From Lachnospiraceae bacterium (GTDB taxonomy: Bacteria; Bacillota; Clostridia; Lachnospirales; Lachnospiraceae), in contig JAFSYI010000023.1 of the NCBI GenBank assembly GCA_017450065.1, forward strand, positions 29,794-93,793: a stretch of 64,000 nucleotides of DNA. Direction: 5' to 3'. This document shows, in pieces, positions 20,639 to 26,103 of this stretch. The notes beneath the pieces were generated by a model. The model did no database searches. It was not told where the DNA came from and saw nothing but the letters and a program-made list of their open reading frames with translations. Position 1 is the stretch's first letter. Each line of letters begins with the position of its first letter. A program made the translations under genes and the position numbers.

Positions 20639-21202
20639 ATGACCGGTGAAACAGTGAAAAGGGTGCGGAGTATTTGTCTGTGTGCGGTATTTGGGTGCAC
20701 GATGGAGCTGGCGGCGGCGCTGCTCCTCGGAAGCATATTAGCTTTTTTCCCGGAGACTGCGGCCGGCTATCAGGGACAGATGGATTCGAAACTTGCGGGC
20801 GGAATGATAAGTCTTTTTATTGTAGCCTTTTTTTCTCCTCTGTTTGAAGAAGCTGTTTTCAGGTTCCTTTTGCTGGGGGTATTGGAAAGAAAGACAGGCT
20901 TTGCGGCAGCAAATGTGATCCAGGCACTCATCTTCGGAATATATCATATGAGTGTTATACAGGGAATATATGCATTTCTGCTCGGAATGCTGATAGGACT
21001 TCTTAAGCATTATACGGGGACGTTAATAAGCTGCATATGCTTCCATGTTTTTTTCAATATAACCGGAATACTTGTCAACATATACATGCCGGCAGAAATA
21101 GGTACCATTAACAGGACTGCTGCAATGATCGCCGGTATTTCTGTTTCCTGTGTACTTTTTATCCTGATACGACGGAACCGATGTGATGTGCAAAAAGGCT
21201 GA
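20639..21202 (+). CDS. CPBP family intramembrane metalloprotease (Abi/CaaX-like)
   Basis: A 187-residue polytopic protein with the three CPBP motifs: FEEAVFR (Glu-Glu and Arg), FGIYHM (His) and CICFHVFFN (His and Asn). CPBP proteins are glutamic intramembrane proteases; in Firmicutes they are linked to bacteriocin self-immunity, prenyl-peptide processing or unknown tasks. It starts 3 bases after the SGNH-like gene, so it belongs to the acyltransferase operon. Its last 44 bases overlap, on the opposite strand, the end of the convergent ATP-grasp gene at 21159, with no room for an intergenic terminator. Confidence 0.85.
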   Translation: MTGETVKRVRSICLCAVFGCTMELAAALLLGSILAFFPETAAGYQGQMDSKLAGGMISLFIVAFFSPLFEEAVFRFLLLGVLERKTGFAAANVIQALIFGIYHMSVIQGIYAFLLGMLIGLLKHYTGTLISCICFHVFFNITGILVNIYMPAEIGTINRTAAMIAGISVSCVLFILIRRNRCDVQKG

Positions 21203-22151
21203 CCATGTCTATATCTGTATTGGCATAAACCATACGCGCTCCCACGACATCCTCAAATTCATTAAAGACGGGTTCCCCGTCTTTATCGAAGACGAAATCA
21301 ACACCCATATAATCTCCGGGGAGAGCCTCAGCCAGTTTTTCCGCAACGGAGCGTTCCCTTTGACCCGGATCATAAAGCGAAGCGTTTCCACCCAGGGAAA
21401 AGTTGGCACAAAGATCTCCGGAGTTCTTTGCGGTCCTCATCATTCCGGCAACGATCTTACCGCCTATAAAATAGACACGGAGATCCCTTCCGCGAACCGA
21501 TGCAAGACGCTGGATGATAAGCTTACGGTACGGATATCTGTTATGATCGACAATGATCCCCTTTATCGCCTGAAGGAGCTCTGCTTCGCTGTTTATAAGG
21601 GAAACATGTTTTCCGCCGTGTCCCTCTGCGGGTTTTAGTACGAATGGATAACCGAAGGCTTCGGCTTTAAGTCTGACGGAATTATATCCTTCGGTATCGG
21701 TAAGCGATCTTATACCGGCATACAGAATTGTCAGGTCATCACTGCCGTTTCCGGAATCGGGCAGCATTGAAAGTATCTCTTCTTCATTGACAGTAACGAA
21801 CGGCATATAGGGAACACCGAGCTTATCGGCAACCTTATATGAAAGCTCCTTATCATTGGCTACTTTTGTTACCTCTGCAGGATTAAAGACCCGTATCCCC
21901 TGCTTCTCAAAATCATAAGCTATATCTGCATTACGTGAACGATTCACAATGAAAGCGGGCGTTTCCTTACGGCTTAGCAGTTCATCAGCCAGAGAACTTA
22001 AATTCATGGCATAAGCATCTGAAACATAATCTGTATATATGAGCTTAAGAGTGAGTCCATAGGGTTCGCACTCTTTCTGCAGCTTCTCTATGAACCATTT
22101 GTTAACGGAAGCACTTTCCGATTCATACAGCAGCCAACCTGTTTTATTCAT
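21159..22151 (-). CDS. RimK-like ATP-grasp ligase (second of tandem pair)
   Basis: A 330-residue ATP-grasp protein. Visible elements are VANDKELSYKVADKLGVPYMPF (the pre-ATP-grasp helix; only its start is needed for recognition), the nucleotide-binding FGYPFVLKPAEGHGGKHV loop, LIIQRLASVRGRDLRV, and the metal-binding end GVDFVFDKDGEPVFNEFED. It should join a carboxylate, activated as acyl phosphate, to an amine. I prefer ATG 22151, with AAAGGTGG about 8 bases upstream and MNKTGWLLYESES as the natural N-terminus; ATG 22214 overlaps the upstream gene's stop (ATGA) but has a weak site. The usual Asn of the C-terminal metal motif is present (FNEFED). Substrate unknown. Confidence 0.82.
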   Translation of the reverse strand: MNKTGWLLYESESASVNKWFIEKLQKECEPYGLTLKLIYTDYVSDAYAMNLSSLADELLSRKETPAFIVNRSRNADIAYDFEKQGIRVFNPAEVTKVANDKELSYKVADKLGVPYMPFVTVNEEEILSMLPDSGNGSDDLTILYAGIRSLTDTEGYNSVRLKAEAFGYPFVLKPAEGHGGKHVSLINSEAELLQAIKGIIVDHNRYPYRKLIIQRLASVRGRDLRVYFIGGKIVAGMMRTAKNSGDLCANFSLGGNASLYDPGQRERSVAEKLAEALPGDYMGVDFVFDKDGEPVFNEFEDVVGARMVYANTDIDMVSLFAHHIGSVVSG

Positions 22152-22210
22152 TCCTGTCACCACCTTTAACTGTTTAAATTCAGGAATCCGTTGTGAACAT
22201 TCCATAAATA

Positions 22211-23155
22211 TCATAATTTCTTTATTTTGGGTCGTCCGATGCTGTTCAGTATATGTGCAACAATGGCGTCTGCAGCATTAATACCTGTACATTCGAATAT
22301 TCCTTTGAAATGTGCATTGGAATTGACTTCGCATAGTAAGGGTTCTCCGTCGCTGTCTGTAAGTATGTCAACTCCGGCATAATCAAGCTTCAGTATACTG
22401 CACGCCTTAAGAGCCATGGCAGCTTCCCGGTCTGTAGGAGTGTATGCCTTCGCGTGTCCGCCGAGAGCTATGTTTGCCCTGAAATCGCTTTCGTTATATC
22501 TGAGCATTGAAGCAATGCATTTCCCGCCTACTACTATGATACGTTTGTCTTTACCGGATATCTGATGGTCGTTTGTCTGTTGTCCGTGAGTATTGGAATG
22601 TTCGGGTTTTATATATTCCTGGATCATACACGGACGTCCTTTAACAGTTCTTAAGATATCAACACACTGTTCATGCGTGCTTATCAGATGGACCTGCTCA
22701 CCGAAGGAGCCGAAGCATTCCTTGAGCACAAACGGAAAGCCCATGCGTTCTTCAATCTGTATAAGAAAATCCGTATTGCAGTAACCCGGTCCTTCGTATG
22801 TAAAGGGTACGCTGTAGGTTACCGGCATCCTTACCGATCCTGCAAGCCTTGCACAGGTTAACGATTTGTCATCACAGGCTTCTATCGCATCCGCACAGTT
22901 AAAGAGTGTAAGTCCCGCCGCCTCAAGCACCCGTGCCAGCCGGATATCCTTGTCCCAGAAAATGACATAATCAGGCCGGCCGGTGTAAAGATCGGGATAT
23001 ACAATACTGTTTATATCCGTTCTCACCGTGATATCTGCATTGGTCTTGAGCGTAAGTTCGCTTCCGGCTTTTCCTGCTGCCGTTATAAGCCAGTCATATA
23101 ATTCACTGAATTTTCCGTTGTTAAGAAATCTGTTAACGATAAGCCAGCCCTTCAT
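22211..23155 (-). CDS. RimK-like ATP-grasp ligase (first of tandem pair)
   Basis: A 314-residue ATP-grasp protein, distant paralogue of its downstream neighbour. It has ACDDKSLTCARLAG, the nucleotide-binding MGFPFVLKECFGSFGEQV loop, CMIQEYIKPEH, IIVVGGKCIASMLRY and the metal-binding GVDILTDSDGEPLLCEVNSN, in RimK order. Start ATG 23155 follows AAAGGAG by 5 bases. Two such ligases in one transcription unit, without a recognisable peptide precursor or transporter, suggest two sequential amide or ester ligations on one small molecule or surface component. A role in modifying a wall component is possible but unsupported beyond location. Confidence 0.82.
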   Translation of the reverse strand: MKGWLIVNRFLNNGKFSELYDWLITAAGKAGSELTLKTNADITVRTDINSIVYPDLYTGRPDYVIFWDKDIRLARVLEAAGLTLFNCADAIEACDDKSLTCARLAGSVRMPVTYSVPFTYEGPGYCNTDFLIQIEERMGFPFVLKECFGSFGEQVHLISTHEQCVDILRTVKGRPCMIQEYIKPEHSNTHGQQTNDHQISGKDKRIIVVGGKCIASMLRYNESDFRANIALGGHAKAYTPTDREAAMALKACSILKLDYAGVDILTDSDGEPLLCEVNSNAHFKGIFECTGINAADAIVAHILNSIGRPKIKKL

Positions 23156-23379
23156 ACATTCTCCTTTATGCTTTACGATCCTTCTTGTATTTTACACTTA
23201 AAACGGACAGAATGCCATATGTATCGGATGAATGCAAAACAGTGAAAAATACGCAGTACTTTGAGGATTCCTTATGATACTACCTGTTCTGAACAGTTAC
23301 GTGATTGTATTATATCTGAGCGGATGATAGAATTAAGCGGACAGGACAGGCTGAAAAATAATCTTGGAGAAGGTTTGAT
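23156..23379. promoter_or_regulatory. Divergent intergenic region between ATP-grasp pair and GTPase-nuclease fusion
   Basis: This 224-base stretch must hold divergent promoters. On the plus strand TTCTGA (23291-23296) and TTATAT (23314-23319) are spaced 17 bases, a weak sigma-A match. A small dyad, CTGTTCTGAACAG (about 23284-23296), overlaps that -35 and could be an operator. GGAGAAGG precedes ATG 23380. No leader ORF or terminator hairpin was seen. Confidence 0.35.
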
Positions 23380-26103
23380 ATGAAGCATATAAATCTCGGT
23401 ATAGTTGCCCATGTTGATGCGGGTAAAACGACTCTGACGGAAGCAATGCTGTATAAGGCAGGAAATATAAGGAAGCCCGGACGTGTAGACTCAGGGGATA
23501 CATTTCTGGACACAGGTGAACAGGAACGGGAACGGGGGATCACGATCTATTCCAAACAGGCAGAGCTTCTGTTTGGAGAGTTCGGGATAACGCTTCTTGA
23601 TACGCCGGGACATGTGGATTTCTCGGCCGAAGCTGAGAGTGTTCTCCAGGTACTTGATTACTGTATCCTTGTGATAAGTGCGGATGACGGAGTCAAGGGA
23701 CATACCATGACTCTGTGGTCACTGCTTAAGGAGTATGGTATACCTGTTTTTATTTTTATCAATAAGCTTGACCGGCCGGGGATGGACAGAGACGCCGTAC
23801 TTAGGGAGATCAGGGGAAGGCTCGACGATAACTGTATCGATTTTTCGCATCTGTATACCGATGACAGCGCAATTGAAGGTGAAGGACCGGGATTTACGGA
23901 TGAGGATTACGAGTCGATCGCCATGTGTGACGAAGAGCTCATGGATGAATATCTTGCATCGGGCAGTCCTGTAAATGACGTGCAGATCGCTGAGCTTATA
24001 GCGCAGCGTAAGCTGTTTCCGGTGCTGTCCGGATCGGCGCTTAAGCTTGACGGGGTTGATGGCCTTATTGATTCGATGGGTAGATTTACGTTGATTAAGG
24101 AATACCCGCAGCAGTTCGCGGCAAGGGTTTATAAAATTACAAGGGATCCGCAGGGTAACAGGCTTACTCATCTTAAGATAGAAGGCGGAGTATTGCACGG
24201 ACGGGATGTGGTCGGTGAAGAAAAGATCAACCAGATAAGGATATATTCGGGAGACAGATATGAGACCGTTCCCGAGCTCGGAGCGGGAAGGATATGTACG
24301 GTTACCGGACTTAACGCAACCGGACAGGGCATGGGCCTGGGAACACTTAAGGGAACCAATCTTCCGATACTTGAACCGGTACTCTGCTACAGGGTGAGTG
24401 CGGATGACGGAACGGATGATTCCGTGCTTCTTGGAAGGCTTCGGACTCTCGAGGAGGAGGATCCCCAGCTTAAGGTTGAATTTGATGAGAATAACAGACA
24501 GATCCTTCTTCGTGTCATGGGTACGGTTCAGCTTGAAGTGATCACGGAGACCATGAAAAAGAGGTTTGGAACAGGTATCAGATTCGATACAGGATCGGTT
24601 GTATATAAAGAGACAATAGCATCAGCTGTGGAAGGCGTGGGACATTATGAGCCGTTAAGGCATTATGCGGAAGCACATATCCTGCTGGAGCCCCAGCCAA
24701 GGGGAAGCGGACTAAGCTTTGATACCGCCTGCAGCGAGGACGTTCTTGACAGGAACTGGCAGCGTCTTATCCTTACTCATCTTAAGGAGAAGGTTCACAG
24801 AGGTGTGCTCACGGGTGCACCGGTAACCGATATGAAGATGACCCTGCTTACGGGGAAAGCACATCTTAAGCATACCGAGGGGGGTGACTTCAGGCAGGCT
24901 ACCTACCGTGCTGTAAGGCAGGGGCTTATGTATGCAGAGAGTATTCTTCTGGAACCATACTATTATTACAGGATAGAAGTCCCTGTAGACTGTGTGGGAC
25001 GGGTGATGACGGATATAGAGAACATGAAGGGAAGGGTTGAAGCACCGCAGATAGAAGGGGATTCGGCCGTGCTTACAGGCACGGCTCCCGTTGTGTGCAT
25101 CGGTAATTATGCAAAGGAGCTTGCGGCATATACAAGGGGAACGGGATCGGTCTCACTGAGCATTGCGGGATACGGTCTGTGCCATAATCCCGAAGAGGTT
25201 ATCGAAGAGGCAGGCTACTTACCGGAATCGGATATAAGGAATTCACCGGATTCTGTATTCTGCGCACACGGGGCAGGTTACGTGGTCCCATGGAATGAGG
25301 TATATGACAATATGCATCTTCCGCATGCGTACGATCCCGGAAAGAATAATTACGGAGCTTCAGGCGCCGGTGACGGGGTGATACAGAATGCGGAGGACGC
25401 TGACGGATACGGTACCGGACAGGGAGCATCCGGATTCCGGGCAAGACTTAATGAGAACGGGAAAAGCAGCGGACAGAGCGCATCCGGATCCATAGGAACT
25501 GATGAGATAGATTCGATCCTCAATAAGACCTTTTACGCCAACAGCGATTCGACCGTAAAGGCCGAGGCCGAGAAACGTAAGGGAGTGGGAAAGGTGTCCG
25601 GTGCCAATGTTGTGTCCACAGGCGGAAAGATAAATGACCCATATGATGATTTTAAGTATAATCCGGTTAAGAAAAAACAGAAGTACCTGCTCGTCGACGG
25701 ATATAACGTTATATATGCATGGCAGGAGTTAAGAACTCTTGCCGAAACAAATATTGATGGCGCAAGAGACAGACTTACCGATATCATGCATAATTACTGC
25801 GGAGCGGTTGACAGTATCGTGGTCGTTGTCTTTGATGCATATAGGGTTAAGGGAAGAAAGGCATCAGCGATCTCGGACGGACGGTTCAGGGTAGTCTATA
25901 CCGGTGAAGACGAGACGGCGGATCAGTACATTGAGAGATTTGCCAACCGGAACGGACGTAAATATGAGATCACGGTCGCCACATCGGACAGGCTTGAACA
26001 GATCATCACAAGAGGAAATAACTGTTATCTGATCTCTTCCCGTGAACTGGAAGCCGTGGTCAGGGATGAACTGAACAGACTGATGAAGGGTTATTCCACA
26101 TGA
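23380..26103 (+). CDS. Tet(M)/EF-G-like ribosomal GTPase fused to YacP/Rae1-type NYN nuclease domain
   Basis: A 907-residue protein. Residues 1 to about 640 form a translation GTPase of the Tet(M)/EF-G class: G1 AHVDAGKTT (10-18), switch I ERERGIT, G3 DTPGHVD (74-80), G4 NKLD (128-131), then EF-G-like domains II-V ending near CAHGAGYVVPWNEV. A low-complexity Gly/Ser/Asp-rich linker (about 640-765) leads to a C-terminal NYN domain (768-907) with VDGYNVI (Asp773), VFDAYRVKG (Asp819), DETADQYIE (Asp848) and ATSDRLEQ (Asp870), matching YacP/Rae1. Rae1 cleaves mRNA in the ribosomal A site and Tet(M) works in the same site, so the fusion suggests ribosome clearance or mRNA surveillance rather than classic tetracycline resistance. 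GGAGAAGG precedes the ATG. Confidence 0.88.
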   Translation: MKHINLGIVAHVDAGKTTLTEAMLYKAGNIRKPGRVDSGDTFLDTGEQERERGITIYSKQAELLFGEFGITLLDTPGHVDFSAEAESVLQVLDYCILVISADDGVKGHTMTLWSLLKEYGIPVFIFINKLDRPGMDRDAVLREIRGRLDDNCIDFSHLYTDDSAIEGEGPGFTDEDYESIAMCDEELMDEYLASGSPVNDVQIAELIAQRKLFPVLSGSALKLDGVDGLIDSMGRFTLIKEYPQQFAARVYKITRDPQGNRLTHLKIEGGVLHGRDVVGEEKINQIRIYSGDRYETVPELGAGRICTVTGLNATGQGMGLGTLKGTNLPILEPVLCYRVSADDGTDDSVLLGRLRTLEEEDPQLKVEFDENNRQILLRVMGTVQLEVITETMKKRFGTGIRFDTGSVVYKETIASAVEGVGHYEPLRHYAEAHILLEPQPRGSGLSFDTACSEDVLDRNWQRLILTHLKEKVHRGVLTGAPVTDMKMTLLTGKAHLKHTEGGDFRQATYRAVRQGLMYAESILLEPYYYYRIEVPVDCVGRVMTDIENMKGRVEAPQIEGDSAVLTGTAPVVCIGNYAKELAAYTRGTGSVSLSIAGYGLCHNPEEVIEEAGYLPESDIRNSPDSVFCAHGAGYVVPWNEVYDNMHLPHAYDPGKNNYGASGAGDGVIQNAEDADGYGTGQGASGFRARLNENGKSSGQSASGSIGTDEIDSILNKTFYANSDSTVKAEAEKRKGVGKVSGANVVSTGGKINDPYDDFKYNPVKKKQKYLLVDGYNVIYAWQELRTLAETNIDGARDRLTDIMHNYCGAVDSIVVVVFDAYRVKGRKASAISDGRFRVVYTGEDETADQYIERFANRNGRKYEITVATSDRLEQIITRGNNCYLISSRELEAVVRDELNRLMKGYST

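Follow-up and report, generated by a model that had tools for sequence, protein, structure and literature searches.

Rae1 (YacP) of Bacillus subtilis is a nuclease that, according to excerpts of the published work, cleaves mRNA at the A site of the ribosome in a translation-dependent manner, with stalled ribosomes as its proposed targets; an excerpt of a further study reports that losing rae1 or the adjacent yacO, a homologue of rlmB, suppresses the loss of EF-P (PMC6613710). Tet proteins with a YacP-like NYN RNase domain were reported from ten species of Clostridiales in 2015, with a proposed role in antibiotic resistance through RNase action in the portions of that paper available (Atkinson 2015, PMC4342817), and the fusion architecture is thus not new. 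Our literature search, whose coverage left out the main Rae1 papers, returned no other paper on the fusion. Here we describe a gene of identical architecture in a 64,000-nt stretch of contig JAFSYI010000023.1 (hereafter the window) from the genome of a Lachnospiraceae bacterium (GCA_017450065.1). Relative to the portions of the 2015 paper available, we add the breadth of the fusion, its apparent replacement of Rae1, empty operon slots, gene remnants and a conserved linker element.

From comparative sequence analysis, the 907-aa product probably provides the organism with its only Rae1. The reading we favor, with moderate confidence, is that this Rae1 is carried on a GTPase of the EF-G/Tet superfamily and serves as a housekeeping factor of translation surveillance and mRNA decay, not of tetracycline resistance. 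The decisive context comes from beyond the window: the fusion holds the genome's sole NYN_YacP match, and the slot between rlmB and sigH, where rae1 stands in relatives, is empty.

A GTPase and a Rae1 nuclease in one reading frame

The protein is encoded by one uninterrupted open reading frame (ORF) with Pfam domains in both halves (Table 1), as an earlier note made from the sequence alone had read it. Profile searches matched GTP_EFTU, EFG_III, EFG_IV, EFG_C and NYN_YacP, with EF-G_D2 falling below its cut-off; the protein has the G1, G3 and G4 motifs and domains II to V of a translational GTPase of the EF2 family (EF-G/Tet). The NYN_YacP score (137.9 bits against a curated cut-off of 24.6) and a match to the solved B. 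subtilis YacP/Rae1 structures (5mq8 and 5mq9, 3e-19) agree with the note's assignment of this domain to Rae1/YacP and, by similarity, place it in the NYN fold. Four Asp residues that the note had listed as candidates, including Asp773, align with the 5mq8 and 5mq9 sequences and are kept in 122 to 124 of 124 fused NYN domains, and we take them to be the catalytic acids.

The nuclease thus shares with B. subtilis Rae1 the NYN_YacP domain, the four conserved Asp and, usually, a single copy per genome, and it is present where the rlmB-linked rae1 gene is missing; it differs in being the C-terminal domain of a GTPase whose loci have no shared neighborhood. Among 73 fused proteins, mean pairwise identity was 53% for residues 1-402 and 56% for the NYN core; the C-terminal extension of the GTPase averaged 58% and the linker 18%. 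Of the segments measured, the tip region of domain IV (residues 478-520) was the most conserved, at 81%. On these values, the GTPase and nuclease halves are under similar constraint.

Distribution of the fusion across Clostridia

The fused architecture is common to many families of Clostridia, gut species included. Sampled at one genome per genus, 150 Lachnospiraceae included 135 with an NYN_YacP match, which in 119 of these was part of an open frame of 848 aa or more. The other 16 comprised eight clean stand-alone genes of 172-173 aa, one of 249 aa (G068) and seven cases that appear to be split, interrupted or shortened, or to run off a contig (G006, G042, G095, G098, G128, G135 and G140). 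The note had proposed a survey within Lachnospiraceae; the fusion is indeed widespread there, but it is not special to that family. Among 196 Clostridia genomes that were at least 90% complete, from which the window's own genome was excluded, 74 were fused, 59 had a stand-alone rae1, none had both, 5 had the GTPase alone and 58 had neither. A genome was scored as fused if it had an open frame of more than 300 aa together with a match to the GTPase profile, and seven of the 74 have frames of 313-789 aa; one weak match (G279, 7.9e-27) was removed from the GTPase set. The fused form accordingly accounts for 74 of the 133 NYN-bearing genomes. In a phylum-wide sample, the GTPase profile matched 21 of 299 genomes at 1e-40, 18 of them in frames of at least 857 aa.

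Reading 124 loci gave 124 ORFs with both parts, of which 118 were at least 840 aa; the motif and linker counts below refer to these 118. Against the contigs of GTDB species, at least 594 stretches were confirmed. The best 80 named loci among these, whose titles include Hungatella hathewayi, Butyrivibrio, Ruminococcus flavefaciens, Intestinimonas butyriciproducens and Christensenella sp., comprise 78 with an ORF holding both parts. In two of the 78 (L122 and L147) the N-terminal portion of the GTPase occupies a different frame, and the remaining two of the 80 are split into two adjacent ORFs (L182) or cut by a contig end (L191). The split of GTPase and NYN into two overlapping ORFs, seen at L050:5513-8198 and L182:4660-7216, reflects either gene fission or a sequencing frameshift.

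These homologues bear on whether assembly or a frame error joined two separate genes. Such an artifact has no support in the sequence itself, and only the nature of the source genome speaks for it, a draft in 100 contigs that resembles a metagenome-assembled genome, with 88% completeness and 3.4% contamination. Both parts are present in 124 of 124 loci, some of them from single-contig genomes and one on the complete H. hathewayi chromosome CP102274.1. Relatives with the same architecture refute a frame error, and we regard an artifact of either kind as having a negligible probability.

We found no conserved neighborhood around the fused gene, the commonest neighbor family occurring in 15 of 118 fused loci within the stretches examined. 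Carriage as mobile-element cargo was rejected, since, of the records with a match, only 2 of 1,012 from plasmids and 2 of 101 from phages covered at least 80% of the protein; the two plasmids are of 252 and 518 kb, and the one covering phage record inspected is an unverified, unannotated fecal scaffold. A scan of viral contigs reduced 84 pattern matches to three loci, none with an NYN match in the stretch examined. A defense system was likewise rejected, with no PADLOC family matched at E 0.01 or better.

Apparent replacement of stand-alone rae1

No intact stand-alone rae1 was found alongside a fusion in the 150 Lachnospiraceae or the 196 Clostridia genomes, leaving aside G039, where a contig end truncates the second NYN piece and precludes a verdict. 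Second NYN matches occurred in four further genomes: G130 (two pieces in one frame), G076, G269 and G323 (below cut-off). In the window's own genome, the single NYN_YacP match is the fusion.

Where rae1 stands alone, its operon has the order cysS-mrnC-rlmB-rae1-sigH. Genes were named by sequence clusters, rlmB also by TIGR00186, and the names cysS, mrnC and sigH are in part our assumption. We found rlmB near 27 of 31 stand-alone rae1 loci, including 7 of the 9 from Lachnospiraceae, and in all 22 loci that yielded both rlmB and sigH, rae1 lay between the two (the coordinate rule counts 21; in L087, rae1 and the end of rlmB share 50 nt). We then took 26 fused genomes, hand-picked for good assemblies from the Lachnospiraceae and class samples, and none of the 26 had an intact rae1 within 1.5 kb of rlmB. 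In the 18 where we could locate sigH, the distance between it and rlmB was 21 to 595 nt. The window's genome carries cysS-mrnC-rlmB-sigH twice (contigs C100 and C28), each time without rae1 and with rlmB and sigH within 3 nt of each other. The doubled operon would represent either a duplication or a contaminating relative.

In 4 of the 26 slots, tblastn with stand-alone rae1 recovered apparent remnants interrupted by stops in all three forward frames. The strongest, L236, scored 70 bits with a second piece at 61; L238 scored 40, L237 35 and L241 a weak 34, and 200 letter-shuffled slots gave no matches. The remnants in L236, L237 and L238 best match the stand-alone rae1 of their own family, that in L236 even of its own genus. 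Because 74 genomes are fused, 59 separate and none both, because the slots hold no intact rae1 and because some retain remnants, the fusion appears to have replaced Rae1. Many Clostridia thus seem to have lost the separate gene and to carry Rae1 as the tail of a GTPase instead, and the remnants seem to catch that replacement in the act.

The operon also bears on the nuclease's substrate. In keeping with a proposal for NYN domains cited in Atkinson 2015, the enzyme might mature or cut rRNA or tRNA and not mRNA, and stand-alone rae1 does adjoin the rRNA methylase gene rlmB. We consider this unlikely, as later papers, in the excerpts available, have B. subtilis Rae1 cutting mRNA in a translation-dependent manner, and it is precisely rae1 that the fusion appears to replace.

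The GTPase half compared with Tet proteins

The solved structures nearest to the GTPase part (N-terminal 600 residues) are TetO and TetM, with which it shares the order of the G domain and domains II to V. The P-loop and DTPGH motifs are present in 118 of 118 fused ORFs and NKxD in 109. The protein differs from Tet(M), Tet(O) and Tet(W) in forming a separate clade, in the tip of domain IV and in an added C-terminal extension. At the tip, Tet(O) and Tet(W) have YSPVSTPADF and the window protein KHTEGGDF, and the form KHT[EQ]xxDF occurs in 112 of 118 fused ORFs. In the tree, the GTPase half and its unfused sisters branch separately from Tet(O)/Tet(W) (support 98), of which the GTPase half is, on sequence, the sister clade. 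The earlier description as a Tet(M)/EF-G-like GTPase thus stands as far as EF-G/Tet likeness goes; the protein is not Tet(M) itself and belongs to a sister subfamily without the Tet tip.

Public product names are mixed, some records reading 'TetM/TetW/TetO/TetS family' and others 'translation factor GTPase family protein'. That annotation, the proposal of Atkinson 2015 in the portions available and the closeness of TetO and TetM would favor a factor for resistance to tetracycline or another antibiotic. The window protein, however, scores 421 bits against the curated resistance model NF012153, far under its cut-off of 775, lacks the Tet tip and falls on the separate branch, and the fusion is near-universal in Lachnospiraceae. 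On these four points we reject tetracycline resistance as the main role, and the earlier preference for translation control is supported; the replacement pattern, the empty slots, the remnants in four of them and the linker element, all added here, likewise argue against resistance. Antibiotic resistance of any kind strikes us as quite improbable.

The unfused sister GTPases, of about 650 aa, resemble the fusion in the tip and the C-terminal extension and differ in having no nuclease. One such copy lies on the megaplasmid pMP118 of Ligilactobacillus salivarius (L224:5529-7920), where it is annotated as tetracycline resistance and adjoins rpsN (S14) and a putative metal homeostasis gene. Another, of 651 aa, is encoded on a 67.8-kb viral contig from IMG/VR (L221:395-2350), near an ORF that by eye looks like a DNA methylase. 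A further Tet-like branch (L102, L211 and L212; 636-733 aa) has no C-terminal extension and groups with Tet(O)/Tet(W).

C-terminal extension and linker

The C-terminal extension (residues 601-648) is absent from the Tet and EF-G sequences compared, and its S[VI]FCxxG motif occurs in 116 of 118 fused ORFs. C601, C628 and H646 are invariant among the 73 nearer sequences; in a wider set of 45, C601 is kept in 44, C628 and H646 in 43 each and H630 in 34. In 13 of 16 unfused clostridial copies, a Cys directly follows the last of the three. C601, C628 and H646 form a possible metal (zinc) site, and the neighbors of the pMP118 gene, taken with this Cys/His-rich extension, hint at a link to metal.

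Linker length had a median of 82 aa and a range of 62-206 in the 106 of 118 linkers that could be delimited. Described earlier as flexible, the linker is long and variable, but it is not simply flexible, since it holds a conserved element at residues 708-719. The pattern [DE]-[EILVM]-x-x-[IVL]-[FLM]-x-[RKN]-[TS]-[YF], often followed by basic residues, was found in 60 of the 106, against 0.02 per shuffled set; it was spotted in the alignment and is thus fitted to the data counted. By eye, many of the 46 linkers without it look like variants, and E709 and I713 are kept in at least 90% of the 73 sequences.

Origin of the fusion

We built quick trees with many open forks, comprising a GTPase tree of 49 rows (26 hand-picked of 120 fused GTPases; L050, L103, L182 and L191 omitted as split or contig-cut) and an IQ-TREE of the NYN domain (36 hand-picked of 122 fused rows; L049, L050 and L182 omitted). 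Fused proteins and the unfused L. salivarius copy form one clade (support 97), outside which fall all 16 unfused clostridial copies, 15 of them in a clade of their own (support 97). A single origin of the fusion was not rejected by approximately unbiased tests (p 0.32 for GTPase, 0.77 for NYN), and both quick trees need two changes. The stand-alone NYN domains of Lachnospiraceae fall inside the fused group with FastTree and form their own group with IQ-TREE (support 95). Fused proteins from seven families (f8, f20, f21, f25, f48, f57 and f65) make up one tight group (support 100), as would be expected had the fusion passed from family to family and ousted the gene already there.

Proposed mechanism and points against it

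The GTP-bound GTPase half would bind a paused ribosome at the factor-binding site, and its domain IV would probe or clear the A site. After GTP hydrolysis this half would vacate the A site, and the nuclease domain, tethered by a linker of about 118 residues, would then enter it and cut the mRNA, so that the ribosome might be rescued and the message degraded. The sequences themselves show a single gene, conserved signatures of GTPase and nuclease, and the pattern in which separate rae1 is replaced; recruitment, the order of events and the coupling to GTP hydrolysis are what we infer.

Several observations weigh against this picture. Domain IV of EF-G and of Tet proteins reaches the A site. Domain IV and the nuclease should both need this site; they would compete and should therefore act in turn, which the long linker allows. 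The window's NYN domain covers only positions 1-139 of the 166-position Pfam model, lacking the last part, and many relatives reach position 164-166. An NYN_YacP match is missing altogether from 63 of the 196 genomes of the Clostridia sample and from 15 of the 150 Lachnospiraceae, which makes the function dispensable. Across Clostridia, the unfused GTPase is present in 6 of 59 genomes with a stand-alone rae1 and 5 of 63 without NYN (p 0.76), so that no obligate partnership of GTPase and rae1 is supported outside the fusion. Its occurrence in those 5 of 196 genomes without an NYN_YacP match indicates a job of its own.

Within Lachnospiraceae, at E 1e-45, the unfused GTPase is present in 5 of 9 genomes with stand-alone rae1 and in 0 of 15 without NYN (Fisher p 0.003). 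This excludes a sixth match in the Tet-like branch (G068, 34% identity); alternative counts give 6 of 9 (p 0.0006) or 5 of 8 (p 0.0017).

It is for the same reason, the GTPase without an NYN match, that the strongest rival explanation is two independent functions on one chain, with the fusion merely keeping the nuclease near ribosomes and GTP hydrolysis uncoupled from cleavage. The six genomes where the GTPase occurs beside an unlinked rae1, the versions split into adjacent ORFs (G042, 711 and 190 aa; L182, 672 and 197 aa) and the long, variable linker are all consistent with it. A mere tether, however, would not need a conserved linker element, and the fused form has been kept in more than half of the NYN-bearing Clostridia genomes; we hold such independence to be rather doubtful.

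In eukaryotes, no-go decay employs Hbs1-Dom34 plus a nuclease. The fusion could, as a tentative extension of the surveillance role favored above, be a counterpart across Clostridia families in which surveillance by one chain is clocked by GTP: the GTPase would test whether the A site stays empty or blocked, hydrolysis would hand the site to Rae1, only persistently paused ribosomes would be cut, and the linker element would dock the resting nuclease on the ribosome or the GTPase.

Coordinates and neighboring genes

Table 1. The fused gene and its parts, in window positions (position 1 is the first nucleotide of the window)
Feature	Position	Strand	Basis
Fused GTPase-Rae1 gene, 907 aa, ATG start	23380..26103	+	Single ORF; relatives share architecture
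Ribosome-binding site GGAGAAGG, 6 nt upstream of ATG	23366..23373	+	Read in sequence; graded good
GTPase (G) domain, residues 2-233	23383..24078	+	Pfam GTP_EFTU, 6e-50
G-domain motifs: P-loop AHVDAGKTT 10-18, DTPGH 74-78, NKLD 128-131	within 23383..24078	+	
Domain II, residues 246-313	24115..24318	+	Pfam EF-G_D2, below cut-off (24.0 vs 27 bits)
Domain III, residues 332-400	24373..24579	+	Pfam EFG_III
Domain IV, residues 406-519	24595..24936	+	Pfam EFG_IV
Domain IV tip KHTEGGDF, residues 497-504	24868..24891	+	Alignment vs Tet tip YSPVSTPADF
Domain V, residues 523-602	24946..25185	+	Pfam EFG_C
C-terminal extension (CHN..., SVFCxHGAGF), residues 601-648	25180..25323	+	Alignment
Variable linker, residues 649-766 (~118 residues)	25324..25677	+	18% pairwise identity, 73 sequences
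Conserved linker element DEIDSILNKTFY, residues 708-719	25501..25536	+	Pattern count and alignment
NYN_YacP (Rae1) nuclease domain, residues 770-898	25687..26073	+	Pfam NYN_YacP 4.3e-40; PDB matches
D773, aligned to D7 of B. subtilis Rae1	25696..25698	+	Asp in 124/124
D819, candidate metal-binding acid	25834..25836	+	Asp in 124/124
D848, candidate metal-binding acid	25921..25923	+	Asp in 123/124
D870, candidate metal-binding acid	25987..25989	+	Asp in 122/124

Divergent from the fused gene lie two adjoining genes for RimK-like ATP-grasp ligases (21159-23155, minus strand; 351 and 314 aa, with a 4-nt overlap), of which the 314-aa ligase is above the RimK-family cut-off (168 vs 143 bits) and the 351-aa ligase below it.

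Implications

The partial annotation as tetracycline resistance of a gene that is near-universal in Lachnospiraceae and common in other Clostridia, and that is probably their only Rae1, could inflate counts of resistance genes in surveys of microbiomes. If the favored reading is true, these bacteria would unite in a single polypeptide a GTPase that probes ribosomes and a nuclease that acts in the A site, and how Rae1 finds its ribosomes would become testable with point mutants of a single protein.

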